Below, piece by piece: positions 7,101 to 48,800 of a DNA stretch of 64,000 nt. The notes under the pieces were generated by a model. The model was not told the DNA's origin. It was given only the letters and a program-made list of their open reading frames with translations, and did not search any database. Within the stretch, counting starts at the first letter, position 1, and every line of letters begins with the position of its first letter. Both the position numbers and the translations under genes were made by a program. The stretch is from Clytia hemisphaerica (lineage: Eukaryota; Cnidaria; Hydrozoa; Leptothecata; Clytiidae), in NCBI GenBank assembly GCA_902728285.1, contig CACVBU010001151.1, positions 528,923 to 592,922 on the forward strand, given 5' to 3'.

Positions 7101-7305
7101 AAGTGAAATTTACTTTGCTTGTAGATAGAACTTAATTTGATTTAAAACAATTTGAGCAAGTGTACAAGGAAATAATATTTTCAACAGCAAGAATAATTAG
7201 GTTTTCTTTGTTTTAAATCCTGAATCACTATTTTCGGTTAATTTCAACTACTTTTTGACAAATGAATGAATTTCTTCAAATGATTTATTTATCTAAAGAC
7301 ACCTT
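4184..7305. other. AT-rich intergenic DNA without a recognised gene
   Basis: Apart from the SINE-like repeat at 6128-6310 I see no ORF with coding character, no convincing splice-site pairs and no RNA gene. Immediately upstream of 4183 should lie the promoter of the small secreted-protein gene. No clear TATA box stands out there. Confidence 0.5.
6128..6310 (+). repeat. SINE-like dispersed repeat, copy 2
   Basis: It shares gcatccagctacg, aaaatggtact, gtgcctctttt, cttaatgt and taagtggagaaatgg with the copies at 1998 and 51478. It is shorter and diverged. The ORF across it has no coding character. Confidence 0.5.
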
Positions 7306-11468: not shown

Positions 11469-11564
11469 ATGGGGTGGGTGACATTTATGAGATTTTTTTC
11501 CTACACTTTGTATTTATTTCCTTTAGATTTCAGATTCAGAACAAATATTGAAATATATGAAGAG

Positions 11565-12116
11565 ATGAAGTGCATCAGTCTAGTATACTTATTGTTTGTC
11601 TTTATATACCAAACTGAATCGGTGTACGCTAATAATCGAGACACGGAAGAGTCAAACAATATACGACAACAAATATATAAACGTTTGACAAGCGCAAAGG
11701 ATTATGGGGAATGTTGTTTAAAGGTTTTGTCGTGTTGTGTTTTACGCATACCCGGACGGAAAAGATCAATTCTTGATACGATGGATAATGAGTGGAGAAA
11801 GACAATTAGAAAAGATTTGCCTTCAAAATTCAATATCCTGAGGTCCATACGAAAACGGGAAGACGAAATTGAAGACGCTGGAAAAACCTTTATAAGAAGG
11901 ACTCGAAAATTTCCAGTGGAAGAAAGACAAAGACAAGAAGGATTGGAATATTTACCCAAATTGAAGAACATCGCACTATTTTTGAAATTGAACCAGTTTG
12001 ACCATTTTATGAGAAAATCTACTCAAAAATACTTGCATCGAAGGAATGAGATCTTGAAAAGGGAAATTGTAATTTTAGCACAAAGACTGATACGTAAGCT
12101 ACACAGGAGTTCATAG
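11565..12116 (+). CDS. secreted basic protein, possible peptide precursor (183 aa)
   Basis: The frame is open from 11469. The ATG at 11565 is preferred because it starts a typical signal peptide (MKCISLVYLLFVFIYQ, cleavage near the Ala at residue 22). An acceptor-like ttagatttcag just upstream suggests a 5' UTR intron. The mature part has a Cys-Cys-x5-Cys-Cys cluster (ECCLKVLSCCVL) followed by RIPGRKRS. The Gly before a basic triplet is the usual signal for prohormone cleavage and C-terminal amidation. The remaining 90 or so residues are strongly basic and helical (RLIRKLHRSS at the end). AATAAA-like sites follow near 12286 and 12324. I recognise no family. It may be a neuropeptide or other Cys-rich peptide precursor, or simply a basic secreted protein. 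Confidence 0.55.
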   Translation: MKCISLVYLLFVFIYQTESVYANNRDTEESNNIRQQIYKRLTSAKDYGECCLKVLSCCVLRIPGRKRSILDTMDNEWRKTIRKDLPSKFNILRSIRKREDEIEDAGKTFIRRTRKFPVEERQRQEGLEYLPKLKNIALFLKLNQFDHFMRKSTQKYLHRRNEILKREIVILAQRLIRKLHRSS

Positions 12117-16826: not shown

Positions 16827-19800
16827 CTACAGGGGTGGAAATTGAGAGAATTGTTGCTTTTATTTATCATACGCTTTCTTTTTAATAATGAAAGCTGTGT
16901 GTGTGATCGCATTTGGGTTTACTTTACCATACATACGACATGCGGAGCTCTTAAGCACTTGTTTGTTCGGAAAAAACCTACTTTCGAGAGAGGCAAAGGA
17001 ACAAACGAACGAACGAACGAACGAACGAACGAACGAACGAACGAACGAACGAACGAACGAACGAACGAACGAACGAACGAACGAAATATCATTTACTCAC
17101 ACTTTCATTGACACGGTATAATAATTGTTTGACCTCGGTGTCCGATAGATCGTCATCCTCACTATTACGTTTGTCCAAATCCAAACTCTGTAAAAAACAA
17201 AATGGTAGACAAATTGAAAGAAATCTTAATCTGCTTAAATGATGCCTCTTTTTGACACCCCTTCTTCACACTCCTTCCTCCCCCTAATCCAAACTATAAA
17301 AAACGAAATGGTAGACAAATAGAAAGTTTTTAAATTGCAACCAATGAACCTTATAAAGTGGATAAAATCTGATTTTCCTGCTTATTTAAATGACGTAACT
17401 ATCTTCTTAACACTATCCGATCCCTGAAATAATCCCTGCCCATTAAGGTTTTCACGCTTTTATAAGGTTCGGGAAACACTGAATGTTTGGGTATTTTTCT
17501 GAGAACTCAAATACCACACTGCCATATAATTTGACCTCAATAAAAAGGCATTCTGTCCACGCCTAATCTGAGTAAGAGTTTAGAATCCCATCATTCAGTT
17601 TTTCGGAAGGTGTCAAAATCGCTGAGGGGACCCATCAAGTTGCGATGTAAGAAGCTTTTTCAATTCAAATTCAAATCGTTCTTACCGTCAGTGAGACATA
17701 CTTTTCCAATTTTTCTTGAAGGGTGTAGATCTCTCTAAAAATATCAAGCATATTTATTTACAAGTAAAGGTTTCGTAGGCACGGGAAGTCTTGACATTGT
17801 AACAACTAGTCAGTAAATGCTGGAGTGTGTTAATATCTATGCGGAATGAAACAGAAGCTTTTTGCAAAAAAGTATTTTAAAGGTCTTTAAAATTTACTTA
17901 TTAGCGTAAGACAATTTGGTTTTGAGCTCTTCAATTTCACGAGTGGCCACTTCACGTGTCGCCTCAAGTTCTTTTTCTCTGTCCTCAATTTGGCTCTTGA
18001 TTTTCTGGTATCCCTCTGTTGCACTCTCTTTCGACTGAAAGAACATAGAAAATGAATAAATTTTTTACTGCTTACTTTTTCATGAAGAAGAAATAAGTTT
18101 TTTATCATTGTTACATTATCGGGGGGAAAAGACAGCGTCAAAACTATGTCAGGTAAAACGTAATATACCAACAGATTTTTCCGACTTAACAAAAAACTTT
18201 CGCCAAATTCACCATATCCCATTTGAGCAAATCATGGCGCTAGTAGAATGATGTCACTTTCCCTCAAAATTACGGTTAAAAAAAAAGATTTAAAGTCACG
18301 GGAAAAACACTAATATCTACCATTAGATCAAAAGCTCATTAATTCCGCCCAATTCGGAATCAAATAATTTAGGGTAAAAATATTACCTGTTCTAAGGCTC
18401 TCTTCTCTTCAACAATCTTTTCGCGGTCGCTCTGCATACATGTGATGAGATCGAGCTCTCTTTCTTTCAATTGATCAATTTCCGATTGCATCGCTTTCTC
18501 CATTATTAGAATTTTCTCGTACATTTCATCTTCGAGTCTAGTGGAAAATAGGATGGTTTTTTGTACAGACTAGTCTCTATTACTCGAATGTCTCCTAAAT
18601 TCAAACAGGTCTTATTTTCCCTTCGGTTAATAATGTCTTATAAACCTTACTCCATAACTCGAACAGATTTGTGTTCCATGTGCGTGTTCGAGTTATGGAG
18701 ACTCCACTGTATAAGCAAACAGAAAATCAAAGTCAAGAGTCCATAAGACGTGCTTAGTGTGTAGATTGTGTGCAGGCCAAAAAACAACAAACAATCCCGT
18801 CTGACCTGAGCGAGCGTCGAAAGCCTTTTCAAAGTCTCGCAAATCAAAGTTCAGATATGAGGAGCCAATTGTACAAACCAATGACCTTTATAAACCCTGG
18901 ACTAAACTATATTCGCATTCATTGATGTGACGAGCTTTTCTGAAAGTGGTACCCGCAAAAACTCCGATCAAAAATTTTCAAGATAACAGGAACAGGATTA
19001 CGAAGTTTCTATGGCAACCAAATTAAAAAGATCATTCTCATCCTTCATAAAAGTGTAGCGCAAATTCTCGACTTTTTTATTCATTGTGACAATTCTCGAG
19101 CTTTATTTATAGAGTAGGGTCAATAAAAACGCCGTGCGAAGAAGAAGAAGCTGTCTTATTGGGCAGAATCCATTCCTGACCCAAGTGAAGAGGTTTTATT
19201 TTGCTTCTATACAAATTAGCCCTGAGTTTCTTCTTTTCATTATTGTAAAATATCCTTTCGATAGCTACAAGCAAGCAACAAACTTCTTTCCTGCGAGAAT
19301 TGATATTAGCAAAAAATACCTGTGTTATATTTATCACAAATCAGGGTTGAAAATTAGACAACTTTGTAAATCACATCAAGATGTCAAAGAAATTGATATC
19401 AAAACAAAGTTTTGGAGGATGTATGCTTAAAATGGATTAAAATTCTTTTATTATTGGCTGACAAGCTTTTTAACACCGACATTAAAATTTTTTATTAAAA
19501 AGGACCTTGAGCTGCAGTCGTGACCCGAATTTGCCTGAGTGACCCCTTCCCGGAAAGCTGAGAAAAATAAAGACTGATGGCTTTAAGCTGTTAGTTCCGT
19601 GTTTACCAAATCTGCTCACCATCTTCTTGAATATTTTTCTCTCCCTGTCATCAAGCTATGAAAAGACTTGCTTCTTAGTTGTAAAATTTTGCAAAAATGC
19701 GAATAGTATAACCAGTATAATTTTGTACGAAAAGCGGGAATCATGTTTCGAGCCCTGCGTGACTACTAGAATGGAACAAAGAAAGAACTTTTTTTATTGG

Positions 19801-22800
19801 ACGAAGTCTGGTCAACATTGCTCACTGTAATACTACAGTACTATCTTGTTTACAATTTAACAGATGAAATGCAAAGAATTTCTGAATTGCTATCAAAACA
19901 ACAAACTCAAACCTTTACAAGAGACTTTTCTTGTGAAGGAACCTTGCCTATACTTGTGAGAAAACAATAAGGAGGGAAAGAAAACCGTTAGAACAAAAGT
20001 TTAAGAGAAGCTTTTAGGTGTGTGAAATTACTCTACCCTGTCTCTGCTTTGTACCCAGAAATACTTTTCGGGGAGGATAGGAAAAAAACAAAAACGGAAA
20101 ATTAAAATGAAATGAAGAGTTTATTAGATTTCAAAGATATTAAAAACGGTCATACAATTTCTAATTATGACAAATAAATGGACGATTTTCAATTGACACA
20201 ATTTGGCACAGTTTATATCAACAAAGCATTCTTATTGACTTTTTTAAATAATTTCAAACTATTGTTTTCATCTATTTTGTTAATCTATTTATAGGTGGCA
20301 GAGTAGCATTTCAATTAGACATGGCTTCCATACGCTTTCGGTTGAAATATTGTCTTGTATTTTTGTTCGGTCTAAAAACCGCAATGTAACATTTGTGCCC
20401 GTACAATAATAACACGATAATGGTACAATTAATTACGACAACAATTAATCGAGCAAATTCTTCATCCACTTGGTCCAAGAATGCGGTGATGGGGAACGAA
20501 ATCAAGAAGTTAATGGTGGCGATGAGAATAGAGTAGACCAGGGACATTGCGTTGTTCATTGGCCCTGGTAGATGGCGTCCACGGTAAGCTTGGATCAAGC
20601 ATAACATTTGTAAGAATGTGATGAAGGAGATTAAAACATTCTGGTGGTATCCAGTGTTACAGTAATGGATGCGAAGCATATTTTCGTCCTCCAGGAATGT
20701 GGAAACTTCAGGTGATTGTTGAGTGAAAGTGATCACTGAGATGGCATTGGAGATCAACAGAAAAATAAAAATGGTGAACATTTGCGAAGCAGATGTCAAG
20801 CGGATTTCCTTACGCGATAAACGAACACTGGATCGGAAAGCAGTCAAAAGCTTTGTTGATTTGGTGTAAACAAAAGCCACATTGATAACGTACAGAATGC
20901 TGATGATGAGGTTTCTTGCAATGCATTTGGCAACGCTGACTTTCTGTGCAAGATTGAGAAACAACAATGAACTAACAAGCAATATCATGTTGGTAAGGTG
21001 CAACATCGATAACATCTTATCAGAGGACCTGACAACCGGAGTATCGCGTTTGATACAAAACACAACCAATATGAACTTAGTCACCAGCAATGAGAGCGCG
21101 CCGGAACAAACGATAAGGTAGAATTGAAGAGAAGTGAAAGTAATGTCCACATTTGAATATGGGTCAATGCATTCTGTCCTTTGACCGTTATCGATAGTAT
21201 AAGGCTCTGTATTACATTTGGTGCATTTGGTGTCACCAGGAAAAGGTTTTATATGATTGACCGGACACAGAATACATTTAAATCCATACATTTGGTCATA
21301 GAGTTTGCTTTCGATCAATCCGTAAACTTGGTGATAGCCAGGAGGGCAATAAAGTCTTTGGCATTTTTTCTCTTCCATTTGAACATTTTGGAGAAATATT
21401 TTGGATCGGTTCATGTAATTAAGATGGTGGGTGAAAACTCTCTCTTCCGGGGGTTCATCATGGTAAAATGGGATTATAAATGAATGACCAACATGATTCA
21501 ATATATAATCGACGGTTCGTTGGAGTGACTCAATTTCCCCATATCTGAGCCTATTTTCATAGATTGTGTCTTGCCACCGTTGAATGGCATTGAAATATAC
21601 TTGGAACGAGCTTGTACTCTCTTGAAAATTGGTCAGCCAGGGCAATTTTTCACGACCATTTTCCTCCTTATACGTACCTATCTCAAATAGTGTAGGATTT
21701 AAATGAGGAAAAATGATCGGGTTTTGTCTGTAATTTTCCAGAAAGAACCCTTCGAAATACAACTCAAACATGCTAGACAAAAATTCAACTCTCCCATAAA
21801 ATATAATCACAGTCGAATTAGTGACAGCTCTTTGGAAATATGATTTCATATTCTTTATAATAGGGTTGTCTCTAGAGTAATCGAAGCCCACCAAGTTCAG
21901 CACTTTACTTTTCAGACAAAATGTGTTTGATCCCTTCAGAACGTCAATAGTACGATCAAAATAGGTTTCCCAGTAATCTACTTTTACTTCATAGTCATCA
22001 AATTTGAGTAGAAGAACATCATACCACTTGAAACGATCTAATAAGTTTTTGAGCTCCATAACTTGATCATCCACCGATTTGACAGTCAGACCTTCATCAC
22101 AGCTTCTCAGACCACAGACTTTAAAAACATTGGTAAAACTGAAATAATGTTGGATTATCTTAGACATTGAGTCAGGCACGAGAGCTAGGATGTAACCAAT
22201 ATTGCTATTCCGCCATACTTGTTTTCCTGTCTGTTGGTTAGTTTGTGGTTGAAAGAAATAATCTTCTTGGAGCAACAAATCGATCATGGTTCTTTGAAGA
22301 ACTTCTGTATCATTACAAATATCTTCAATTTCTCGATGTTTCGTCTGAAATTGACCGTCCAGAGAGTATGAAGATGATTTAATGGATTTGATATTCCAGG
22401 CCTCTTGTTAGCTGCTGTTTGGAAGCTTGCGTTACGGCAGGTGGAATAGATAGTGACGGTATGGTAGTTACTCATGGGTTGGTAAATGTGAAAGTCTCTT
22501 CCAAAAGCTTCGGAGTCTTGAAGTTGACCGATGATAACCAAGATGAGCAGTAAGGATGAAGTTGAACAACAATGTTCTTTCCTCGCCATTTTAATATTCG
22601 ACATTTTCTAAAAATCTTAGGTAACAAGTAAAAGAGTGAAGGAGGATTTAAAATATTTCACGGGTTTAGAAATATACGTAAAATAATGCGGGAAAAATGT
22701 ATATCAATCAAGATTTTTCGTAAAGGTTAAATGAAAATCTAAGCTCAGGAAAAAATTTCACATCCTTTTGAGAGCCGCAGTGGAACTAAAAATTCCTGAA

Positions 22801-25800
22801 GGTTGGTTCTCTTATATTGTCATTTAGGCCCAGATACGATCTCAATGACTTCTATATAAAAACGAAACAGGCGTCAAATAAGTAGCGTTATAGGAAAATG
22901 ATAAAATCAAAAAAAAAGTATCATTGGTGGGCCTGCGGAGAGCACTACTTTATCAATGGGTTAGTGTAATAAATAAAGTTTCAGACACCGGTAGTAAATG
23001 CTTCCTTATTGGAAAGAGCAAGAAATATTCATCAAACTATTGTCATATTTTAATACTTTATGCATTACTTTTTATAAAAGGTTATCTGAATTCAAAATAT
23101 ACATCGACGCTTTTCCTTTTTAAATAAAATACACACCCAAGATGAAAATCAAATCACTGCAACCCTGCCCCTCTAGGACGGGACCACAGTTTTTCGAAAC
23201 CTGATAGTTTTGAGTTAGGGAAACTTGTACTATAAGTTTTCCAGCTGTTAAATCAAACAACCCGAACTTCTTCAAATCAAAAAGTATCCAAAGAAAAGTT
23301 TAAGAGAAGCTTTTAGGTGTTTTTTCTCAAGAAATTACTCTACCCTGTCTCTGCTTTGTACCCAGAAATACTTTTCGGGAAGGATAAGAAAAAAACAAAA
23401 ACGGTAAATTAAAACGAAATGAAGTGTTTATTAGATTTCAAGGATATTAAAAATGGTCATACAATTTCTAATTATGACAAATAAATGGACATTATACAAT
23501 TGGCACAGTTTTACAATTTCACCAGTCTTTATCATGGTTAGAAAGAAGTTCGTCACACGATCAGTTTATATTAACAAAGCATTCTTATTGACTTTTTGAA
23601 ATAATTTCAAACTTATTGTTTTCATCTATTTTGTTAATCTATTTATAGGTGGCAGAGTAGAATTTCAATTAGACATGGCTTCCATACGCTTTCGGTTGAA
23701 ATATTGTCTTGTATTTTTGTTCGGTCTAAAAACCGCGATGTAACATTTGTGCCCGTACAATAATAACACGATAATGGTACAATTAATTACGACAACAATT
23801 AATCGAGCAAATTCTTCATCCACTTGGTCCAAGAATGCGGTGATGGGGAACGAAATCAAGAAGTTAATGGTGGCGATGAGAATAGAGTAGACCAGAGACA
23901 TTGCGTTGTTCATTGGCCCTGGTAGATGGCGTCCACGGTAAGCTTGGATCAAGCATAACATTTGTAAGAATGTGATGAAGGAGATTAAGACATTCTGGTG
24001 GTATCCAGTGTTACAGTAATGGATGCGAAGCATATTTTCGTCCTCCAGGAATGTGGAAACTTCGGCTGATTGTTGTGTGAAAGTGATCACTGAGATGGCA
24101 TTGGAGATCAACAGAAAAATAAAAATGGTGAATATTTGCGAAGCAGATGTCAAGCGGATTTCCTTACGCGATAAACGAACACTGGATCGGAAAGCGGTCA
24201 AAAGCTTTGTTGATTTGGTGTAAACAAAAGCCACATTGATAACGTACAGAATGCTGATGATGAGGTTTCTTGCAATGCATTTGGCAACGCTGACTTTCTG
24301 TGCAAGATTGAGAAACAACAATGAACTAACAAGCAATATCATGTTGGTAAGGTGCAACATCGATACCATCTTATCAGAGGACCTGACAACCGGAGTATCG
24401 CGTTTGATACAAAACACAACCAATATGAACTTAGTCACCAGCAATGAGAGCGAACCGGAACATACGATGAGGTAGAACTGAAGAGAAGTGAAAGTTATGT
24501 CCACATTTGAATATGGGTCAATGCATTCTGTCCTTTGACCGTTATCGATAGTATAAGGCTCTGTATTACATCTGGTGCATTTGGTGTCACCAGGAAAAGG
24601 TTTTATATGATTGACCGGACACAGAATACATTTAAATCCATACATTTGGTCATAGAGTTTGCTTTCGATCAATCCGTAAACTTGGTGATAGCCAGGAGGG
24701 CAATAAAGTCTTTGGCATTTTTTCTCTTCCATTTGAACATTTTGGAGAAATATTTTGGATCGGTTCACGTAATTAAGATGGTGGGTGAAAACTCTCTCTT
24801 CCGGGGGTCATCATGGTAAAATGGGATAATAAATGAATGGCCAACATGATTCAATATATAATTGACGGTTCGTTGGAGTGACTCAATTTCCCCATATCTG
24901 AGCCTATTTTCATAGATTGCGTCTTGCCACTGTTGAATGGCATTGAAATATACTTTGGACGAGCTTGTACTCTCTTGAAAATTGGTCAGCCAGGGCAATT
25001 TTTCACGACCATTTTCCTCCTTATACGTACCTCTATCAAATAGTCTAGGATTTAAATGAGGAAAAATGATCGGGTTTTGTCTGTAATTTTCCAGAAAGAA
25101 CCCTTCGAAATACAACTCAAACATGCTAGACAAAAATTCAACTCTCCCATAAAATATAATCACAGTCGAATTAGTGACAGCTCTTTGGAAATACGATTTC
25201 ATATTCTTTATAATAGGGTTGTCCCTAGAGTAATCGAAGCCCACCAAGTTCAGCACTTTACTTTTCAGACAAAATGTGTTTGATCCCTTCAGAACGTCAA
25301 TAGTACGATCAAAATAGGTTTCCCAGTAATCTTCTTGTACTTCATAGTCATCAAATTTGAGTAGAAGAACATCATACCACTTGAAACGATCTAATAAGTT
25401 TTTGAGCTCCATAACTTGATCATCCACCGATTTGACAGTCAGACCTTCATCACAGCTTCTCAGACCACAGACTTTGAAAACATTGGTAAAACTGAAATAA
25501 TGTTGGATTATCTTAGACATTGAGTCAGGCACGAGAGCTAGGATGTAACCAATATTGCTATTCCGCCATACTTGTTTTCCTGTCTGTTGGTTAGTTTGTG
25601 GTTGAAAGAAATAATCTTCTTGGAGCAACAAATCGATCATGGTTCTTTGAAGAACTTCTGTATCATTACAAATATCTTCAATTTCTCGATGTTTCGTCTG
25701 AAATTGACCGTCCAGAGAGTATGAAGATGATTTAATGGATTTGATATTCCAGGCCTCCTTGTTAGCTGCTGTTTGGAAGCTTGCGTTACGGCAGGTGGAA

Positions 25801-28800
25801 TAGATAGTGACGGTATGGTAGTTACTCATAGGTTGGTAAATGTGAAAGTCTCTTCCAAAAGCTTCGGAGTCTTGAAGTTGACCGATGATAACCAAGATGA
25901 GCAGTAAGGATGAAGTTGAACAACAATGTTCTTTCCTCGCCATTTTAATATTCGACATTTTCTAAAAATCTTAGGTAACAAGTAAAAGAGTGAAGGAGGA
26001 TTTAAAATATTTCACGGGTTTAGAAATATACGTAAAATAATGCGGGAAAAATGTATATCAATCAAGATTTTTCGTAAAGGTTAAATGAAAATCTAAGCTC
26101 AGGAAAAAATTTCCCATCCTTTTGAGAGCCGCAGTGGAACTAAAAATTCCTGAAGGTTGGTTCTCTTATATGGTCATTTAGGCCCAGATACGATCTCAAT
26201 GACTTCTATATAAAAACGAAACAGGCGTCAAATAAGTAGCGTTATAGGAAAATGATAAAATCAAAAAAAAAAGTATCATTGGTGGGCCGGCGGAGAGCAC
26301 TACTTTATTAATGGGTTAGTGTAATAAATAAAGTTTCAGACGCCGGTAGTAAATGCTTCCTTATTGGAAAGAGCAAGAAATATTCATCAAACTATTGTCA
26401 TATTTTAATACTTTATGCATTACTTTTTATAAAAGGTTATCTGAATTCAAAATATACATCGACGCTTTTCCTTTTTAAATAAAATACACACCCAAGATGA
26501 AAATCAAATCACTGCAACCCTGCCCCTCTAGGACGGGACCACAGTTTTTCGAAACCTGATAGTTTTGAGTTAGGGAAACTTGTACTATAAGTTTTCCAGC
26601 TGTTAAATCAAACAACCCGAACTTCTTCAAATCAAAAAGTATCCAAAGAAAAGTTTAAGAGAAGCTTTTAGGTGTTTTTTCTCAAGAAATTACTCTACCC
26701 TGTCTCTGCTTTGTACCCAGAAATACTTTTCGGGAAGGATAAGAAAAAAACAAAAACGGTAAATTAAAACGAAATGAAGTGTTTATTAGATTTCAAGGAT
26801 ATTAAAAATGGTCATACAATTTCTAATTATGACAAATAAATGGACATTATACAATTGGCACAGTTTTACAATTTCACCAGTCTTTATCATGGTTAGAAAG
26901 AAGTTCGTCACACGATCAGTTTATATTAACAAAGCATTCTTATTGACTTTTTGAAATAATTTCAAACTTATTGTTTTCATCTATTTTGTTAATCTATTTA
27001 TAGGTGGCAGAGTAGCATTTCAATTAGACATGGCTTCCATACGCTTTCGGTTGAAATATTGTCTTGTATTTTTGTTCGGTCTAAAAACCGCGATGTAACA
27101 TTTGTGCCCGTACAATAATAACACGATAATGGTACAATTAATTACGACAACAATTAATCGAGCAAATTCTTCATCCACTTGGTCCAAGAATGCGGTGATG
27201 GGGAACGAAATCAAGAAGTTAATGGTGGCGATGAGAATAGAGTAGACCAGGGACATTGCGTTGTTCATTGGCCCTGGTAGATGGCGTCCACGGTAAGCTT
27301 GGATCAAGCATAACATTTGTAAGAATGTGATGAAGGAGATTAAGACATTCTGGTGGTATCCAGTGTTGCAGTAATGGATGCGAAGCATATTGTCGTCCTC
27401 CAGGAATGTGGAAACTTCGGCTGATTGTTGTGTGAAAGTGATCACTGAGATGGCATTGGAGATCAACAGAAAAATAAAAATGGTGAACATTTGCGAAGCA
27501 GATGTCAAGCGGATTTCCTTACGCGATAAACGAACACTGGATCGGAAAGCGGTCAAAAGCTTTGTTGATTTGGTGTAAACAAAAGCCACATTGATAACGT
27601 ACAGAATGCTGATGATGAGGTTTCTTGCAATGCATTTGGCAACGCTGACTTTCTGTGCAAGATTGAGAAACAACAATGAACTAACAAGCAATATCATGTT
27701 GGTAAGGTGCAACATCGATACCATCTTATCAGAGGACCTGACAACCGGAGTATCGCGTTTGATACAAAACACAACCAATATGAACTTAGTCACCAGCAAT
27801 GAGAGCGAACCGGAACATACGATGAGGTAGAACTGAAGAGAAGTGAAAGTTATGTCCACATTTGAATATGGGTCAATGCATTCTGTTCTTTGACCGTTAT
27901 CGATAGTATAAGGCTCTGTATTACATCTGGTGCATTTGGTGTCACCAGGAAAAGGTTTTATATGATTGACCGGACACAGAATACATTTAAATCCATACAT
28001 TTGGTCATAGAGTTTGCTTTCGATCAATCCGTAAACTTGGTGATAGCCAGGAGGGCAATAAAGTCTTTGACATTTTTTCTCTTCCATTTGAACATTTTGG
28101 AGAAATATTTTGGATCGGTTCACGTAATTAAGATGGTGGGTGAAAATTCTCTCTTCCGGGGGTTCATCATGGTAAAATGGGATAATAAATGAATGGCCAA
28201 CATGATTCAATATATAATTGACGGTTCGTTGGAGTGACTCAATTTCCCCATATCTGAGCCTATTTTCATAGATTGCGTCTTGCCACTGTTGAATGGCATT
28301 GAAATATACTTTGGACGAGCTTGTACTCTCTTGAAAATTGGTCAGCCAGGGCAATTTTTCACGACCATTTTCCTCCTTATACGCACCTCTATCAAATAGT
28401 CTAGGATTTAAATGAGGAAAAATGATCGGGTTTTGTCTGTAATTTTCCAGAAAGAACCCTTCGAAATACAACTCAAACATGCTAGACAAAAATTCAACTC
28501 TCCCATAAAATATAATCACAGTCGAATTAGTGACAGCTCTTTGGAAATACGATTTCATATTCTTTATAATAGGGTTGTCTCTAGAGTAATCGAAGCCCAC
28601 CAAGTTCAGCACTTTACTTTTCAGACAAAATGTGTTTGATCCCTTCAGAACGTCAATAGTACGATCAAAATAGGTTTCCCAGTAATCTTCTTGTACTTCA
28701 TAGTCATCAAATTTGAGTAGAAGAACATCATACCACTTGAAACGATCTAATAAGTTTTTGAGCTCCATAACTTGATCATCCACCGATTTGACAGTCAGAC

Positions 28801-30844
28801 CTTTATCACAGCTTCTCAGACCACAGACTTTAAAAACATTGGTAAAACTTAAATAATGTTGGATTATCTTAGACATGGAGTCAGGCACGAGAGCTAGGAT
28901 GTAACCAATATTGCTATTCCGCCATACTTGTTTTCCTGTCTGTTGGTTAGTTTGTGGTTGAAAGAAATAATCTTCTTGGAGCAACAGATCGATCATGGTT
29001 CTTTGAAGAACTTCTGTATCATTACAAATATCTTCAATTTCTCGATGTTTCGTCTGAAATTGACCGTACAGAGAGTATGAAGACGATTTAATGGATTTGA
29101 TATTCCAGGCCTCTTTGTTAGCTGCTGTTTGGAAGCTTGCGTTACGGCAGGTGGAATAGATAGTGACGGTATGGTAGTTACTCATGGGTTGGTAAATGTG
29201 AAAGTCTCTTCCAAAAGCTTCGGAGTCTTGAAGTTGACCGATGATAACCAAGATGAGCAGTAAGGATGAAGTTGAACAACAATGTTCTTTCCTCGCCATT
29301 TTAATATTCGACATTTTCTAAAAATCTTAGGTAACAAGTAAAAGAGTGAAGGAGGATTTAAAATATTTCACGGGTTTAGAAATATACGTAAAATAATGCG
29401 GGCAAAATGTATATCAATCAAGATTTTTCGTAAAGGTTAAATGAAAATCTAAGCTCAGGAAAAAATTTCCCATCCTTTTGAGAGCCGCAGTGGAACTAAA
29501 ACTTCCTGAAGGTTGGTTCTCTTATATGGTCATTTAGGCCCAGATACGATCTCAATGACTTCTATATAAAAACGAAACAGGCGTCAAATAAGTAGCGTTA
29601 TAGGAAAATGATAAAATCAAAAAAAAAAGTATCATTGGTGGGCCGGCGGAGAGCACTACTTTATTAATGGGTTAGTGTAATAAATAAAGTTTCAGACGCC
29701 GATAGTAAATGCTTTCTTATTGGAAAGAGCAAGAAATATTCATCAAACTATTGTCATATTTTAATACTTTATGCATTACTTTTTATAATATACGGTTATC
29801 TGAATTCAAAATATACATCGACGCTTTTCCTTTTTAAATAAAATACACACCCAAGATGAAAATCAAATCACTGCAACCCTGCCCCTCTAGGACGGGACCA
29901 CAGTTTTTCGAAACCTGATAGTTTTGAGTTAGGGAAACTTGTACTATAAGTTTTCCAGCTATCGCACCAAATTGGTGTTGCGATTTTTGTCATCTCAGAG
30001 AAGAAGTCATTGCATTGTTTTTTCGCGCGCGTTCTATTTTGCGCCAATCAAATTGCGTCACGCATTCGAAAGATTCGAAAATGTTGCAATCAAAATCAAA
30101 ACAAAAAGTTCCATTTGTGACTTTGTCAGTTTGGCTTTTGAAAAGAACACATTGAGCTTTTCAAAAAATAAAACCTTTAATTATTACTCTCATTCTAAAA
30201 AATAAAACCTGAGAATGAAGGAAAGTTGTAAAATTAATTAAGTTGAGATTTGATTGGAAAGAGGTATGTATGTAGAGAAATGGAATGCTTTGTTTGCTTC
30301 AGTTTTCGCTGTAGACTTTCCTGCCTTCGAAATTCAGTTTTCGAAGGTAGCCTATTATTTATCTAAACTTTATTCTTATCAAATGGTGATTCAATTTTGG
30401 ATATCAAAAACTCCCAAGGATAACCAGTAAGTTTTTATTTAATTTGGAGATGAAAAAAATGGCAAAAAAAGGCTGAGCTAGAGAGAACTGTCGGCCATTT
30501 GTACGAAAAAGGGATTCCTTTTTCGAAGTTTTTCTTCCAGTAAGACTATTTTATACAGTACAATATTTGAAAATTAAGCTGCTAGTTTGAAAATCAAACC
30601 CAGCTCGATGGATAATTTACTTTGTAGATCAATGTAAAATATGTTTTAGATTTGTAAATGCTTTGAGTTCTTTATAAAATTAAAAACTAATGCCAAAATT
30701 TCCTATGTCCTTTACGTCAAAATCTAGATTTTAGAAAAGTTACACAAAACTTTTATCATGCCATCCATTCTCGTTCAAAAATCACCACATTCCTCATAAG
30801 GAAACCCCATAACATTATACATATTTGGAAAGCCCTTTGATTAT

Positions 30845-30888
<44 letters not shown>

Positions 30889-36800: not shown

Positions 36801-39800
36801 AAATGTGAAAGTCTCTTCCAAAAGCTTCGGAGTCTTGAAGTTGACCGATGATAACCAAGATGAGCAGTAAGGATGAAGTTGAACAACAATGTTCTTTCCT
36901 CACCATTTTAATATTCGACATTTTCTAAAAATCTTAGGTAACAAGTAAAAGAGTGAAGGAGGATTTAAAATATTTCACGGGTTTAGAAATATACGTAAAA
37001 TAATGCGGGAAAAATGTATATCAATCAAGATTTTTCGTAAAGGTTAAATGAAAATCTAAGCTCAGGAAAAAATTTCCCATCCTTTTGAGAGCCGCAGTGG
37101 AACTAAAAATTCCTGAAGGTTGGTTCTCTTATATGGTCATTTAGGCCCAGATACGATCTCAATGACTTCTATATAAAAACGAAACAGGCGTCAAATAAGT
37201 AGCGTTATAGGAAAATGATAAAATCAAAAAAAAAAGTATCATTGGGGGCCGGCGGAGAGCACTACTTTATTAATGGGTTAGTGTAATAAATAAAGTTTCA
37301 GACGCCGGTAGTAAATGCTTCCTTATTGGAAAGAGCAAGAAATATTCATCAAACTATTGTCATATTTTAATACTTTATGCATTACTTTTTATAATATACG
37401 GTTATCTGAATTCAAAATATACATCGACGCTTTTCCTTTTTAAATAAAATACACACCCAAGATGAAAATCAAATCACTGCAACCCTGCCCCTCTAGGACG
37501 GGACCACAGTTTTTCGAAACCTGATAGTTTTGAGTTAGGGAAACTTGTACTATAAGTTTTCCAGCTGTTAAATCAAACAACCCGAACTTCTTCAAATCAA
37601 AAAGTATCCAAAGAAAAGTTTAAGAGAAGCTTTTAGGTGTTTTTTCTCAAGAAATTACTCTACCCTGTCTCTGCTTTGTACCCAGAAATACTTTTCGGGA
37701 AGGATAAGAAAAAAACAAAAACGGTAAATTAAAACGAAATGAAGTGTTTATTAGATTTCAAGGATATTAAAAATGGTCATACAATTTCTAATTATGACAA
37801 ATAAATGGACATTATACAATTGGCACAGTTTTACAATTTCACCAGTCTTTATCATGGTTAGAAAGAAGTTCGTCACACGATCAGTTTATATTAACAAAGC
37901 ATTCTTATTGACTTTTTGAAATAATTTCAAACTTATTGTTTTCATCTATTTTGTTAATCTATTTATAGGTGGCAGAGTAGCATTTCAATTAGACATGGCT
38001 TCCATACGCTTTCGGTTGAAATATTGTCTTGTATTTTTGTTCGGTCTAAAAACCGCGATGTAACATTTGTGCCCGTATAATAATAACACGATAATGGTAC
38101 AATTAATTACGACAACAATTAATCGAGCAAATTCTTCATCCACTTGGTCCAAGAATGCAGTGATGGGGAACGAAATCAAGAAGTTAATGGTGGCGATGAG
38201 AATAGAGTAGACCAGGGACATTGCGTTGTTCATTGGCCCTGGTAGATGGCATCCACGGTAAGCTTGGATCAAGCATAACATTTGTAAGAATGTGATGAAG
38301 GAGATTAAGACATTCTGGTGGTATCCAGTGTTACAGTAATGGATGCGAAGCATATTTTCGTCCTCCAGGAATGTGGAAACTTCGGTGATTGTTGTGTGAA
38401 AGTGATCACTGAGATGGCATTGGAGATCAACAGAAAAATAAAAATGGTGAATATTTGCGAAGCAGATGTCAAGCGGATTTCCTTACGCGATAAACGAACA
38501 CTGGATCGGAAAGCGGTCAAAAGCTTTGTTGATTTGGTGTAAACAAAAGCCACATTGATAACGTACAGAATGCTGATGATGAGGTTTCTTGCAATGCATT
38601 TGGCAACGCTGACTTTCTGTGCAAGATTGAGAAACAACAATGAACTAACAAGCAATATCATGTTGGTAAGGTGCAACATCGATAACATCTTATCAGAGGA
38701 CCTGACAACCGGAGTATCGCGTTTGATACAAAACACAACCAATATGAACTTAGTCACCAGCAATGAGAGCGAACCGGAACAAACGATAAGGTAGAACTGA
38801 AGAGAAGTGAAAGTTATGTCCACATTTGAATATGGGTCAATGCATTCTGTCCTTTGACCGTTATCGATAGTATATGGCTCTATATTACATCTGGTGCATT
38901 TGGTGTCACCAGGAAAAGGTTTTATATGATTGACCGGACACAGAATACATTTAAATCCATACATTTGGTCATAGAGTTTGCTTTCGATCAATCCGTAAAC
39001 TTGGTGATAGCCAGGAGGGCAATAAAGTCTTTGGCATTTTTTCTCTTCCATTTGAACATTTGGAGAAATATTTTGGATCGGTTCATGTAATTAAGATGGT
39101 GGGTGAAAACTCTCTCTTCCGGGGGTTCATCATGGTAAAATGGGATTATAAATGAATGACCAACATGATTCAATATATAATCGACGGTTCGTTGGAGTGA
39201 CTCAATTTCCCCATATCTGAGCCTATTTCATAGATTGTGTCTTGCCACTGTTGAATGGCATTGAAATATACTTGGAACGAGCTTGTACTCTCTTGAAAAT
39301 TGGTCAGCCAGGGCAATTTTTCACGACCATTTTCCTCCTTATACGTACCTATCTCAAATAGTGTAGGATTTAAATGAGGAAAAATGATCGGGTTTTGTCT
39401 GTAATTTTCCAGAAAGAACCCTTCGAAATACAACTCAAACATGCTAGACAAAAATTCAACTCTCCCATAAAATATAATCACAGTCGAATTAGTGACAGCT
39501 CTTTGGAAATATGATTTCATATTCTTTATAATAGGGTTGTCTCTAGAGTAATCGAAGCCCACCAAGTTCAGCACTTTACTTTTCAGACAAAATGTGTTTG
39601 ATCCCTTCAGAACGTCAATAGTACGATCAAAATAGGTTTCCCAGTAATCTACTTTTACTTCATAGTCATCAAATTTGAGTAGAAGAACATCATACCACTT
39701 GAAACGATCTAATAAGTTTTTGAGCTCCATAACTTGATCATCCACCGATTTGACAGTCAGACCTTCATCACAGCTTCTCAGACCACAGACTTTAAAAACA

Positions 39801-42800
39801 TTGGTAAAACTAAATAATGTTGGATTATCTTAGACATGGAGTCAGGCACGAGAGCTAGGATGTAACCAATATTGCTATTCCGCCATACTTGTTTTCCTGT
39901 CTGTTGGTTAGTTTGTGGTTGAAAGAAATAATCTTCTTGGAGCAACAAATCGATCATGGTTCTTTGAAGAACTTCTGTATCATTACAAATATCTTCAATT
40001 TCTCGATGTTTCGTCTGAAAGTGACCGTCCAGAGAGTATGAAGATGATTTAATGGATTTGATATTCCAGGCCTCTTTGTTAGCTGCTGTTTGGAAGCTTG
40101 CGTTACGGCAGGTGGAATAGATAGTGACGGTATGATAGTTACTCATAGGTTGGTAAATGTGAAAGTCTCTTCCAAAAGCTTCGGAGTCTTGAAGTTGACC
40201 GATGATAACCAAGATGAGCAGTAAGGATGAAGTTGAACAACAATGTTCTTTCCTCGCCATTTTAATATTCGACATTTTCTAAAAATCTTAGGTAACAAGT
40301 AAAAGAGTGAAGGAGGATTTAAAATATTTCACGGGTTTAGAAATATACGTAAAATAATGCGGGAAAAATGTATATCAATCAAGATTTTTCGTAAAGGTTA
40401 AATGAAAATCTAAGCTCAGGAAAAAATTTCCCATCCTTTTGAGAGCCGCAGTGGAACTAAAAATTCCTGAAGGTTGGTTCTCTTATATGGTCATTTAGGC
40501 CCAGATACGATCTCAATGACTTCTATATAAAAACGAAACAGGCGTCAAATAAGTAGCGTTATAGGAAAATGATAAAATCAAAAAAAAAGTATCATTGGTG
40601 GGCCGGCGGAGAGCACTACTTTATTAATGGGTTAGTGTAATAAATAAAGTTTCAGACGCCGGTAGTAAATGCTTCCTTATTGGAAAGAGCAAGAAATATT
40701 CATCAAACTATTGTCATATTTTAATACTTTATGCATTACTTTTTATAATATACGGTTATCTGAATTCAAAATATACATCGACGCTTTTCCTTTTTAAATA
40801 AAATACACACCCAAGATGAAAATCAAATCACTGCAACCCTGCCCCTCTAGGACGGGACCACAGTTTTTCGAAACCTGATAGTTTTGAGTTAGGGAAACTT
40901 GTACTATAAGTTTTCCAGCTGTTAAATCAAACAACCCGAACTTCTTCAAATCAAAAAGTATCCAAAGAAAAGTTTAAGAGAAGCTTTTAGGTGTTTTTTC
41001 TCAAGAAATTACTCTACCCTGTCTCTGCTTTGTACCCAGAAATACTTTTCGGGAAGGATAAGAAAAAAAAAAAAAACGGTAAATTAAAACGAAATGAAGT
41101 GTTTATTAGATTTCAAGGATATTAAAAATGGTCATACAATTTCTAATTATGACAAATAAATGGACATTATACAATTGGCACAGTTTTACAATTTCACCAG
41201 TCTTTATCATGGTTAGAAAGAAGTTCGTCACACGATCAGTTTATATTAACAAAGCATTCTTATTGACTTTTTGAAATAATTTCAAACTTATTGTTTTCAT
41301 CTATTTTGTTAATCTATTTATAGGTGGCAGAGTAGCATTTCAATTAGACATGGCTTCCATACGCTTTCGGTTGAAATATTGTCTTGTATTTTTGTTCGGT
41401 CTAAAAACCGCGATGTAACATTTGTGCCCGTACAATAATAACACGATAATGGTACAATTAATTACGACAACAATTAATCGAGCAAATTCTTCATCCACTT
41501 GGTCCAAGAATGCGGTGATGGGGAACGAAATCAAGAAGTTAATGGTGGCGATGAGAATAGAGTAGACCAGGGACATTGCGTTGTTCATTGGCCCTGGTAG
41601 ATGGCGTCCACGGTAAGCTTGGATCAAGCATAACATTTGTAAGAATGTGATGAAGGAGATTAAGACATTCTGGTGGTATCCAGTGTTACAGTAATGGATG
41701 CGAAGCATATTTTCGTCCTCCAGGAATGTGGAAACTTCGGCTGATTGTTGTGTGAAAGTGATCACTGAGATGGCATTGGAGATCAACAGAAAAATAAAAA
41801 TGGTGAATATTTGCGAAGCAGATGTCAAGCGGATTTCCTTACGCGATAAACGAACACTGGATCGGAAAGCGGTCAAAAGCTTTGTTGATTTGGTGTAAAC
41901 AAAAGCCACATTGATAACGTACAGAATGCTGATGATGAGGTTTCTTGCAATGCATTTGGCAACGCTGACTTTCTGTGCAAGATTGAGAAACAACAATGAA
42001 CTAACAAGCAATATCATGTTGGTAAGGTGCAACATCGATAACATCTTATCAGAGGACCTGACAACCGGAGTATCGCGTTTGATACAAAACACAACCAATA
42101 TGAACTTAGTCACCAGCAATGAGAGCGAACCGGAACAAACGATAAGGTAGAACTGAAGAGAAGTGAAAGTTATGTCCACATTTGAATATGGGTCAATGCA
42201 TTCTGTCCTTTGACCGTTATCGATAGTATAAGGCTCTATATTACATCTGGTGCATTTGGTGTCACCAGGAAAAGGTTTTATATGATTGACCGGACACAGA
42301 ATACATTTAAATCCATACATTTGGTCATAGAGTTTGCTTTCGATCAATCCGTAAACTTGGTGATAGCCAGGAGGGCAATAAAGTCTTTGGCATTTTTTCT
42401 CTTCCATTTGAACATTTTGGAGAAATATTTTGGATCGGTTCACGTAATTAAGATGGTGGGTGAAAACTCTCTCTTCCGGGGGTTCATCATGGTAAAATGG
42501 GATAATAAATGAATGGCCAACATGATTCAATATATAATTGACGGTTCGTTGGAGTGACTCAATTTCCCCATATCTGAGCCTATTTTCATAGATTGCGTCT
42601 TGCCACTGTTGAATGGCATTGAAATATACTTTGGACGAGCTTGTACTCTCTTGAAAATTGGTCAGCCAGGGCAATTTTTCACGACCATTTTCCTCCTTAT
42701 ACGTACCTCTATCAAATAGTCTAGGATTTAAATGAGGAAAAATGATCGGGTTTTGTCTGTAATTTTCCAGAAAGAACCCTTCGAAATACAACTCAAACAT

Positions 42801-45800
42801 GCTAGACAAAAATTCAACTCTCCCATAAAATATAATCACAGTCGAATTAGTGACAGCTCTTTGGAAATACGATTTCATATTCTTTATAATAGGGTTGTCC
42901 CTAGAGTAATCGAAGCCCACCAAGTTCAGCACTTTACTTTTCAGACAAAATGTGTTTGATCCCTTCAGAACGTCAATAGTACGATCAAAATAGGTTTCCC
43001 AGTAATCTTCTTGTACTTCATAGTCATCAAATTTGAGTAGAAGAACATCATACCACTTGAAACGATCTAATAAGTTTTTGAGCTCCATAACTTGATCATC
43101 CACCGATTTGACAGTCAGACCTTCATCACAGCTTCTCAGACCACAGACTTTGAAAACATTGGTAAAACTAAAATAATGTTGGATTATCTTAGACATGGAG
43201 TCAGGCACGAGAGCTAGGATGTAACCAATATTGCTATTCCGCCATACTTGTTTTCCTGTCTGTTGGTTAGTTTGTGGTTGAAAGAAATAATCTTCTTGGA
43301 GCAACAAATCGATCATGGTTCTTTGAAGAACTTCTGTATCATTACAAATATCTTCAATGTCTCGATGTTTCGTCTGAAATTGACCGTCCAGAGAGTATGA
43401 AGATGATTTAATGGATTTGATATTCCAGGCCTCCTTGTTAGCTGCTGTTTGGAAGCTTGCGTTACGGCAGGTGGAATAGATAGTGACGGTATGGTAGTTA
43501 CTCATAGGTTGGTAAATGTGAAAGTCTCTTCCAAAAGCTTCGGAGTCTTGAAGTTGACCGATGATAACCAAGATGAGCAGTAAGGATGAAGTTGAACAAC
43601 AATGTTCTTTCCTCGCCATTTTAATATTCGACATTTTCTAAAATCTTAGGTAACAAGTAAAAGAGTGAAGGAGGATTTAAAATATTTCACGGGTTTAGAA
43701 ATATACGTAAAATAATGCGGGAAAAATGTATATCAATCAAGATTTTTCGTAAAGGTTAAATGAAAATCTAAGCTCAGGAAAAAATTTCCCATCCTTTTGA
43801 GAGCCGCAGTGGAACTAAAAATTCCTGAAGGTTGGTTCTCTTATATGGTCATTTAGGCCCAGATACGATCTCAATGACTTCTATATAAAAACGAAACAGG
43901 CGTCAAATAAGTAGCGTTATAGGAAAATGATAAAATCAAAAAAAAAAGTATCATTGGTGGGCCGGCGGAGAGCACTACTTTATTAATGGGTTAGTGTAAT
44001 AAATAAAGTTTCAGACGCCGGTAGTAAATGCTTCCTTATTGGAAAGAGCAAGAAATATTCATCAAACTATTGTCATATTTTAATACTTTATGCATTACTT
44101 TTTATAATATACGGTTATCTGAATTCAAAATATACATCGACGCTTTTCCTTTTTAAATAAAATACACACCCAAGATGAAAATCAAATCACTGCAACCCTG
44201 CCCCTCTAGGATGGGACCACAGTTTTTCGAAACCTGATAGTTTTGAGTTAGGGAAACTTGTACTATAAGTTTTCCAGCTGTTAAATCAAACAACCCGAAC
44301 TTCTTCAAATCAAAAAGTATCCAAAGAAAAGTTTAAGAGAAGCTTTTAGGTGTTTTTTCTCAAGAAATTACTCTACCCTGTCTCTGCTTTGTACCCAGAA
44401 ATACTTTTCGGGAAGGATAAGAAAAAAAAAAAAAACGGTAAATTAAAACGAAATGAAGTGTTTATTAGATTTCAAGGATATTAAAAATGGTCATACAATT
44501 TCTAATTATGACAAATAAATGGACATTATACAATTGGCACAGTTTTACAATTTCACCCGTCTTTATCATGGTTAGAAAGAAGTTCGTCACACGATCAGTT
44601 TATATTAACAAAGCATTCTTATTGACTTTTTGAAATAATTTCAAACTTATTGTTTTCATCTATTTTGTTAATCTATTTATAGGTGGCAGAGTAGCATTTC
44701 AATTAGACATGGCTTCCATACGCTTTCGGTTGAAATATTGTCTTGTATTTTTGTTCGGTCTAAAAACCGCGATGTAACATTTGTGCCCGTACAATAATAA
44801 CACGATAATGGTACAATTAATTACGACAACAATTAATCGAGCAAATTCTTCATCCACTTGGTCCAAGAATGCGGTGATGGGGAACGAAATCAAGAAGTTA
44901 ATGGTGGCGATGAGAATAGAGTAGACCAGAGACATTGCGTTGTTCATTGGCCCTGGTAGATGGCGTCCACGGTAAGCTTGGATCAAGCATAACATTTGTA
45001 AGAATGTGATGAAGGAGATTAAGACATTCTGGTGGTATCCAGTGTTACAGTAATGGATGCGAAGCATATTTTCGTCCTCCAGGAATGTGGAAACTTCGGC
45101 TGATTGTTGTGTGAAAGTGATCACTGAGATGGCATTGGAGATCAACAGAAAAATAAAAATGGTGAATATTTGCGAAGCAGATGTCAAGCGGATTTCCTTA
45201 CGCGATAAACGAACACTGGATCGGAAAGCGGTCAAAAGCTTTGTTGATTTGGTGTAAACAAAAGCCACATTGATAACGTACAGAATGCTGATGATGAGGT
45301 TTCTTGCAATGCATTTGGCAACGCTGACTTTCTGTGCAAGATTGAGAAACAACAATGAACTAACAAGCAATATCATGTTGGTAAGGTGCAACATCGATAA
45401 CATCTTATCAGAGGACCTGACAACCGGAGTATCGCGTTTGATACAAAACACAACCAATATGAACTTAGTCACCAGCAATGAGAGCGAGCCGGAACATACG
45501 ATAAGGTAGAACTGAAGAGAAGTGAAAGTTATGTCCACATTTGAATATGGGTCAATGCATTCTGTTCTTTGACCGTTATCGATAGTATAAGGCTCTGTAT
45601 TACATCTGGTGCATTTGGTGTCACCAGGAAAAGGTTTTATATGATTGACCGGACACAGAATACATTTAAATCCATACATTTGGTCATAGAGTTTGCTTTC
45701 GATCAATCCGTAAACTTGGTGATAGCCAGGAGGGCAATAAAGTCTTTGGCATTTTTTCTCTTCCATTTGAACATTTTGGAGAAATATTTTGGATCGGTTC

Positions 45801-48800
45801 ACGTAATTAAGATGGTGGGTGAAAACTCTCTCTTCCGGGGGTTCATCATGGTAAAATGGGATAATAAATGAATGGCCAACATGATTCAATATATAATTGA
45901 CGGTTCGTTGGAGTGACTCAATTTCCCCATATCTGAGCCTATTTTCATAGATTGCGTCTTGCCACTGTTGAATGGCATTGAAATATACTTTGGACGAGCT
46001 TGTACTCTCTTGAAAATTGGTCAGCCAGGGCAATTTTTCACGACCATTTTCCTCCTTATACGTACCTCTATCAAATAGTCTAGGATTTAAATGAGGAAAA
46101 ATGATCGGGTTTTGTCTGTAATTTTCCAGAAAGAACCCATCGAAATACAACTCAAACATGCTAGACAAAAATTCAACTCTCCCATAAAATATAATCACAG
46201 TCGAATTAGTGACAGCTCTTTCGAAATACGATTTCATATTCTTTATAATAGGGTTGTCCCTAGAGTAATCGAAGCCCACCAAGTTCAGCACTTTACTTTT
46301 CAGACAAAATGTGTTTGATCCCTTCAGAACGTCAATAGTACGATCAAAATAGGTTTCCCAGTAATCTTCTTGTACTTCATAGTCATCAAATTTGAGTAGA
46401 AGAACATCATACCACTTGAAACGATCTAATAAGTTTTTGAGCTCCATAACTTGATCATCCACCGATTTGACAGTCAGACCTTCATCACAGCTTCTCAGAC
46501 CACAGACTTTGAAAACATTGGTAAAACTGAAATAATGTTGGATTATCTTAGACATTGAGTCAGGCACGAGAGCTAGGATGTAACCAATATTGCTATTCCG
46601 CCATACTTGTTTTCCTGTCTGTTGGTTAGTTTGTGGTTGAAAGAAATAATCTTCTTGGAGCAACAAATCGATCATGGTTCTTTGAAGAACTTCTGTATCA
46701 TTACAAATATCTTCAATTTCTCGATGTTTCGTCTGAAATTGACCGTACAGAGAGTATGAAGATGATTTAATGGATTTGATATTCCAGGCCTCTTTGTTAG
46801 CTGCTGTTTGGAAGCTTGCGTTACGGCAGGTGGAATAGATAGTGACGGTATGGTAGTTACTCAAAGGTTGGTAAATGTGAAAGTCTCTTCCAAAAGCTTC
46901 GGAGTCTTGAAGTTGACCGATGATAACCAAGATGAGCAGTAAGGATGAAGTTGAACAACAATGTTCTTTCCTCGCCATTTTAATATTCGACATTTTCTAA
47001 AAATCTTAGGTAACAAGTAAAAGAGTGAAGGAGAATTTAAAATATTTCACGGGTTTAGAAATATACGTAAAATAATGCGGGAAAAATGTATATCAATCAA
47101 GATTTTTCGTAAAGGTTAAATGAAAATCTAAGCTCAGGAAAAAATTTCCCATCCTTTTGAGAGCCGCAGTGGAACTAAAAATTCCTGAAGGTTGGTTCTC
47201 TTATATGGTCATTTAGGCCCAGATACGATCTCAATGACTTCTATATAAAAACGAAACAGGCGTCAAATAAGTAGCGTTATAGGAAAATGATAAAATCATT
47301 GATAGGTGGGCCGGAGAGCACTACTTTATTAATGGGTCAGTGTAATCATAGTATAGTGTAATAAAAAAAGCTTCAGACGCCGGTAGTAAATGCTTCCTTA
47401 TTGGAAAGAGAAAGATATATTGATCAAACTATTGTCACATTTTAATACTTTATGCATTACTTTTTATAATATACGGTTATCTGAAAGTTACCTTACCTTA
47501 AAGTTACTTTATCAGCGACCTACATGTGAATTCAAAATATACATCGACGCTTTACCTTTTTAAACAAAATACACACCCAAGATGAAAATCAAATCACTGC
47601 ACCCCTGCCCCTCTAGGACGGGACCACAGTAACCTGATAGTTTTGAGTCGGGGAGACTTGGACTATAAGTTTTCCAGCTGTTAAATCAAACAACCCGAAC
47701 TTCTTCAATGATAAAGTATCCCAAGAAATTTCTACACTTTTGTATCAGCAAGACGGAATATCCGATAGCCAAGACGACCATCGCTCTTTCATAAAGTAGT
47801 GAAAAAATAAAAGCTTGAATGGTGGCCGAAGTACTGGCTATGTATTAAATTGCTTCAAGCGTGCCCTTAAAACCGGACATTTAGAAAGTTGGAATTTTCG
47901 GTTTTCCGGATTCGTTCCAGACTTTTGCCGAGCCTTCAGAAGGCCCAGCCGGGCCTGAATCAACAAAAAATAAGAGGATAGTAGTTGACTTACTTTTGCT
48001 TTTCTTCATCGAGACGTCTGTTAAACGAGACTTGTTCATCTTTTGTTTCGTCCTTCAGAACTTCATCTTCTAAAGATGATCGAGACAAATCCTGTTCTTC
48101 AATAAGGTCACCGAGTCTCTCTTTCAATTGTTCGATTTCTGTCAACTCAGTTTGTCGTTCTTGTAAAAATTGTTCTTTCAGCTCGGTCAAAGTCACTTCA
48201 GCGATACCGCGTGTACGAACCAGGTCTTCAAGAACGACTTGCGCTTCTTCGCGGCTTTCGACGAGCGGTTTCCACGTGCTATCCGTTTCAGCTTTGATCG
48301 ATTCGATTTTCTGTTTATAATTTTCGTTTAATACTTCAAGAGTCTGTTTGGATTCAAGCACACCTGCTAATTCCTCCGAATCGGAATCTTTCGGGAATTC
48401 TTTATCGATTAAATACCCAACGTATAATAAATCAGTGTCTAGTTTCGCTGTTTCGGCTTCGTGTAATTTATCGATATCTTTTAATTTTCCTTCGTCTCTC
48501 TCGATCACCGATCTGCATTGGATGACCGACTTTTCGGCCATATCAACTTCTTCCTGTAGCAAAAGAACTTTTTCTCTCGAGACTTGTTCGAATTCTTTTA
48601 AAATATTTTCTGATGTTTCCGTTTCGATTTCGTGTCGTTTCTTTTTATCGTTTAATTCGCTTAACATGTTCTGTATTACTCGTTCTTCCTCCGATTTCAT
48701 AATATCGTGATTTTTCTCGAGTTCGTGGACATCTTCGATTTTATCGTTTAACTCCATTCGCAATCGATCGGCTTTCTTTCTCGAATCGTCGGTTTTCCCT

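Follow-up and report, generated by a model that had tools for sequence, protein, structure and literature searches.

The KRTAP10 keratin-associated cluster places tandem intronless genes inside a host gene, human TSPEAR, and the vertebrate V2R and OlfC chemoreceptors form tandem clusters of class C genes with variable ectodomains, which are multi-exon and intergenic. Nesting on a larger scale is described for Hormiphora californensis, for which 2,357 nested intronic genes in 1,654 hosts are counted (PMC8527503). Here we analyzed a window of 64,000 nucleotides from Clytia hemisphaerica (contig CACVBU010001151.1, positions 528,923 to 592,922, forward strand), in which seven copies of a class C seven-transmembrane (7TM) receptor unit lie in tandem within one intron of a kinesin gene. 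An initial annotation of this window had proposed such an array; most of its elements were recovered, and several were narrowed as described below.

Host kinesin gene and array intron

A single KIF16B-type gene on the minus strand, hosting the receptor array in sense orientation, is supported by the domain matches and the predicted splicing. On that strand the order is motor, weak FHA, long central exon, array intron and PX (Table 1). In the motor exons, at 63.75-63.17 kb, two frames matched PF00225 (E = 1.3e-10 and 1.8e-9); the window holds the C-terminal part of the motor domain only, and the start of the gene lies outside it. The FHA match is weak (E = 0.13; 13.1 bits, where the cut-off is 20.7), and the central exon appears coiled-coil-like, as read from its composition. 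The predicted C-terminus is a PX domain (PF00787, E = 2.5e-12). Among 37 solved-structure matches to this domain, the top two were 2v14 (E = 9.9e-31) and 6ee0 (KIF16B; E = 2.3e-30), and the third-ranked match dropped to E = 1.2e-10. Structure 2v14 is titled 'kinesin-like motor protein C20ORF23', which we take to be a synonym of KIF16B, and further stretches upstream in the kinesin region are presumably KIF16B-like as well.

The splice model joins 11 exons, from 51619 to 14202, into an open frame of 969 amino acids through ten junctions, all of them GT-AG and in frame. The array intron measures 29,456 bp and runs from GTAAGT to CACTAG; the nine other introns modelled over the same range measure 163-1,530 bp. 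As the initial annotation had noted, a Lys codon is split by the array intron and joins cleanly, and the kinesin reading frame is continuous over it. When left unspliced, the frame reaches a stop directly past exon 47994..49718. The two kinesin halves might instead belong to different genes, with the array lying between them, and the separation of the exons by 29.5 kb would suit such an arrangement. We consider it extremely unlikely, because the split codon joins in frame at GT-AG borders, the upstream part has motor exons without a PX match, and the downstream part starts mid-codon and supplies the PX domain closest to KIF16B. The proposal of one KIF16B-type gene was upheld on these grounds.

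By sequence and splice model, all seven units fall within this intron. The array had been given the extent of the whole intron; it does lie inside those limits, but comparison of the flanks with the interior units confines the array proper to 19992-47728. Beyond its low and high ends, the intron continues for 1,454 and 265 bp, respectively, so that 1,719 bp is neither array nor insert. By arithmetic, the intron without six of the units and the mobile insert would measure ~5.1 kb with one receptor, and ~1.7 kb without any.

Several repeats were observed in the kinesin region. A GAAC tetranucleotide repeat of 21.8 copies (16999-17085) lies near the kinesin exon end at 17101. Upstream of the modelled exons, inverted arms of ~359 bp with 94.7% identity (52053-52411 and 52642-52999) form what is, judged by this layout, a fold-back or miniature inverted-repeat transposable element (MITE)-like element. 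Stretches 53110-54109 and 62347-63038, ~89-90% identical and containing TTCCGGC motifs, probably represent a dispersed repeat family.

Table 1. Positions of kinesin segments, receptor units and the mobile insert in the window
Feature	Position	Strand	Details	Basis
KIF16B-type kinesin motor-domain exon segment	63641..63751	-	profile 235-272	Pfam Kinesin PF00225
Kinesin motor-domain exon segment	63169..63264	-	profile 271-302, 37.5 bits	Pfam Kinesin
Possible FHA-domain segment of kinesin	55818..55964	-	below curated cut-off	Pfam FHA
Large coiled-coil-like kinesin exon	47994..49718	-	1,725 nt, 5' neighbour of array intron	open reading frame and splice model
Host intron	18538..47993	-	GT-AG, inside Lys codon AA/A	splice model
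Kinesin exon immediately 3' of array intron	18387..18537	-		splice model
Kinesin 3' exons with PX domain and stop codon	14202..16826	-	16826-16647, 15116-14943, 14366-14202	Pfam PX
Array unit 7, edge	44282..47728	-	diverged upstream flank; receptor frame 44699-46993 open	
Array unit 6	40923..44281	-	receptor frame 41340-43634 open	
Array unit 5	37569..40922	-	receptor frame 37985-40275, four 1-base deletions	
Array unit 4	34214..37568	-	receptor frame 34627-36921 open	
Mobile insert	29961..34213	-	4,253 bp, between units 3 and 4	self-comparison, Pfam, repeat ends
Array unit 3	26606..29960	-	receptor frame 27020-29314 open, 764 aa	
Array unit 2	23251..26605	-	receptor frame 23665-25958, one 1-base deletion	
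Array unit 1, edge	19992..23250	-	diverged tail; receptor frame 20311-22604, one 1-base deletion	

Receptor units and their divergence

Repeat search and self-comparison delimited seven units of ~3,355 bp on the minus strand, spaced by 3353-3360 bp except for one interval of 7,607 bp, and identical at 97.1-98.9% over alignments of 2.9-9.9 kb. The number of units, their size of about 3.36 kb and their strand, shared with the kinesin, agree with the initial annotation. The head-to-tail arrangement stands as far as the regular spacing goes, and is interrupted between units 3 and 4 by the mobile insert, which had gone unmentioned. When one copy was used as a tblastn query with 19940-47760 masked, the search of the window for further receptor copies gave chance matches only (best E = 2.7).

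The insert is bounded by terminal inverted repeats that match imperfectly, at 13 of 16 bases. These ends were picked by eye; a fraction of 0.00025 of 20,000 random pairs was equal or better. An inner open reading frame of 830 amino acids (31066-33558) matches RVT_1 (Pfam, E = 3.3e-8) and points to a run of 41 T residues on the plus strand (30847-30887), which corresponds to a poly(A) tail. The inner element is flanked by CTTTGATTATAATTTT, which recurs on its two sides, at 30835 and 33652, over up to 16 bases. Comparison of the reverse transcriptase with solved structures gave two weak, unrelated matches only. We read the insert as a putative retroelement that lies within a small element with terminal inverted repeats, with neither family named. 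Its position at 29961 is, in unit terms, ~40 bp from the unit joint (23291), a proximity that may be due to chance.

The expectation of a class C G-protein-coupled receptor gene in every unit was borne out in part: both copies scanned out of the seven, in units 4 and 7, matched the Pfam family 7tm_3 (E = 1.7e-24 and 2e-23, respectively), and the receptor frame is open over 764 amino acids in four units (3, 4, 6 and 7). The open copies consist of a single exon encoding a hydrophobic N-terminal segment, an ectodomain of ~400 residues, a Cys stretch and the 7TM region. Further features were taken from unit 4 only. There, residues 10-28 are read as a putative signal peptide, seven Cys residues lie at 415-479, and the hydropathy profile has 13 windows over threshold from residue 490 on, which visual merging reduces to seven stretches, located near 497, 532, 561, 609, 656, 692 and 717. 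In a comparison of the receptor with solved structures, the best 60 of 70 matches were all class C, with calcium-sensing receptors on top (closest, E = 5.8e-18). NCD3G matches in units 4 and 7 were weak and under the curated cut-off (E = 0.068 and 0.059). The module of ANF and NCD3G is reported to have been detected in metazoans only (PMC12716839); the weak NCD3G match would agree with an animal source, without being proof of it.

Divergence between the copies is distributed unevenly along the receptor. By simple counting over all seven copies, residues 411-764 carry 19 silent and 10 replacement changes (omega ~0.20, p = 2.8e-5), and residues 1-410 carry 13 and 27 (omega ~0.75, p = 0.38). The silent/replacement ratio differs between the two halves (Fisher p = 0.008), and the same was observed in the four open copies alone (14 silent and 7 replacement changes in residues 411-764 versus 11 and 27 in residues 1-410; Fisher p = 0.007). 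So counted, the changes show purifying selection as evident in the Cys-rich and 7TM half and not detectable in the ectodomain. Positive selection was not shown in residues 200-400, which have 4 silent and 17 replacement changes (omega ~1.5, p = 0.62). Among units 2-6, variable positions are more frequent in the ectodomain (36 of 1,226) than in the non-coding flanks (13 of 1,032; p = 0.008), and the 7TM half (21 of 1,064) does not differ from these flanks (p = 0.23). Thirteen sites, all of them in codons 208-398, split units 1, 4 and 5 from units 2, 3, 6 and 7. At the level of predicted protein, the copies are thus shown to vary in the ectodomain, in two main types, and to conserve the signalling half.

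Proposed origin of the array and putative transcription across it

The two edges of the array are more diverged than its interior. Aligned to unit 2 over 394 columns, the low edge shows 20 mismatches and 55 gap bases; aligned to the junction of units 2 and 3 over 750 columns, the high edge shows 21 mismatches and 86 gap bases. In the interior, represented by the non-coding positions of units 2-6, only the 13 positions given above vary. Diverged edges around a uniform interior suggest an older array that would have been homogenised by exchange. Unequal exchange would be the best account of the edge pattern, its tract structure not being proven; 174 of 561 pairs of informative sites are incompatible, with a minimum recombination count (Rm) of 11. 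The edge homologies overlap by six unit bases, AAGAAA on the high side and AACAAA on the low side, and with an overlap this short no long flanking repeat is seen that could have driven the first duplication. Strict neighbour-copy ancestry of the units was contradicted by the distance matrix. A retrogene origin of the receptor was likewise set aside, as no poly(A) tract was seen after the unit's AATAAA, the sole check made.

Each unit carries a conserved block upstream of the receptor. TATATA occurs 253-254 nt upstream of the receptor ATG in all seven units, and AATAAA occurs 233 nt past the receptor stop in six units and 186 nt past it in unit 1. A unit-own AATAAA at a near-fixed distance, together with the conserved upstream block, points to independent receptor transcripts.

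The explanation that best fits these observations, to which we assign a probability of roughly 0.7, is a single-copy origin leading to a homogenised, self-transcribed receptor array that is spliced out of the kinesin transcript. A single-exon class C receptor gene, equipped with an upstream region and a polyadenylation signal of its own, would first have resided in a KIF16B-type intron of ~5 kb. A tandem duplication, between ends matching at a few bases only, would then have copied the 3.36 kb unit, and unequal exchange would have brought it to seven copies and would keep the interior alike. The receptors would most likely be transcribed from their own promoters, while the kinesin pre-mRNA would cross all seven units and have the array spliced out. 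The copies may serve as near-identical receptors of a chemosensory type.

Several observations weigh against this account. Both AATAAA (23 occurrences) and TATATA (15) are frequent words along the intron's sense strand. When local clustering of the incompatible sites was tested by permutation, the result was not significant (p = 0.44), so that recurrent change is still a possible cause of the incompatibility. The selection counts assume independent changes, an assumption that exchange would violate. An ANF domain was not found in the ectodomain by Pfam at E values up to 10, comparison of the ectodomain with solved structures gave no meaningful match (one, E = 1.5), and a structure model of the receptor was unusable (mean predicted local distance difference test score, pLDDT, 30.4). 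As far as its sequence goes, the ectodomain is not recognisable as a Venus-flytrap domain. Having no ANF match, the protein is called a class C 7TM receptor here and is not placed in the CaSR, mGluR or T1R subfamily. Finally, the receptor frame is broken in three of the seven units, by one, one and four single-base deletions in units 1, 2 and 5, respectively.

This breakage, together with the landing of a mobile insert within the array, would be expected if the array were mostly dead or dying, its copies nonfunctional with perhaps one active gene and its frameshifts true marks of pseudogenes. We regard such decay as unlikely. The signalling half is strongly depleted of replacement changes, and all six coding deletions, four of them within A runs 2-4 bases long and two at positions that vary among the other copies, could result from uncorrected long-read error in near-identical repeats. 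None of 69 substitutions between copies creates a stop, which is weak evidence against decay, as the random expectation is ~4% and the chance of zero ~0.06. The sequence does not distinguish whether the deletions in units 1, 2 and 5 are true damage or uncorrected read error.

Near-identical units are also difficult to assemble, and the clustering of single-base deletions in unit 5 may reflect poor polishing. The copy number or placement could then be an artefact of assembly, with haplotypes strung together or the array imported from elsewhere. This appears quite improbable: at each end, the array leads via a diverged edge unit into the flanking part of the kinesin intron, and there is no pattern of haplotypes in blocks of three. 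The closest pair is formed by units 2 and 6, with 9 differences, against 29 for pair 1-4, 29 for pair 2-5 and 23 for pair 3-6. False duplication of units 1-3 as units 4-6 is accordingly unsupported by the distance matrix.

Compared with decay or misassembly, we favor a homogenised array whose receptors would be transcribed independently within the kinesin intron. Expression of the two genes might nevertheless compete, with a kinesin transcript that uses a receptor poly(A) site ending early. Receptors and kinesin share a strand, the receptor-associated AATAAA word is present on the sense strand of the intron in all seven units, and the kinesin frame stops directly after exon 47994..49718, so that intronic poly(A) use would yield a kinesin without PX. 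We give such competition a small chance only; in the available account of Hormiphora, many nested genes are parallel to the host, so parallel nesting need not be a switch (PMC8527503). It is very improbable that the array is a functional switch, in which nested receptor transcription and poly(A) use would set the amount of full-length kinesin bearing the membrane-binding PX domain. If it were, receptor copy number would tune endosomal transport in receptor-expressing cells.

Further features and comparison with known systems

Outside the array, the Pfam scan of the flanks covered eight frames at E values up to 1 (51.5-64 kb, all three minus-strand frames; 1-14.4 kb, all three minus-strand and two of three plus-strand frames). 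It returned kinesin and FHA together with sub-cut-off matches to Ycf66_N (E = 0.0095) and DUF6999 (E = 0.0024), the latter at ~7145-7402 on the plus strand with 17.4 bits against a cut-off of 27. An open reading frame of 215 amino acids on the plus strand (11469-12116) had no family match above cut-off in Pfam. From an inner Met it encodes a hydrophobic leader, a CC...CC pattern and then basic residues, and it possibly specifies a small secreted protein. No tRNA genes were found in the window, and Rfam gave no matches at gathering scores.

As in Hormiphora, whole genes lie here in one intron of an unrelated host; many of those nested genes are also on the host strand, and transposable elements are often adjacent (PMC8527503). 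Unlike the present locus, a seven-copy tandem receptor array is not mentioned in the available text of that report, and the example drawn there shows a single host gene containing four genes (PMC8527503). The initial annotation had called the whole arrangement unusual. Since same-strand nesting as such is already documented (PMC8527503), that description applies to the seven-copy receptor array in one intron, which would be the uncommon part. In same-strand nesting, the host transcript must pass nested promoters and poly(A) sites and yet splice; with seven such obstacles in a single intron, the locus offers a natural test of the extent to which introns tolerate internal transcription units. 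The copies are alike in the signalling half and varied in the putative ligand-binding half, and the diverged edges let homogenisation be measured.

Like CaSR, T1R and mGluR, the receptor has a class C 7TM domain preceded by a Cys-rich stretch; it differs from them in an ectodomain that is not ANF by sequence and in an NCD3G match that stays below cut-off. The V2R and OlfC genes differ from the receptors described here, which are single-exon and lie inside an intron. The KRTAP10 cluster in TSPEAR encodes a protein family unlike these class C receptors. The host itself resembles the kinesin-3 KIF16B in its motor, possible FHA domain, long central part and a PX domain with the closest solved relatives, and differs in that one of its introns has grown to 29.5 kb through the array.

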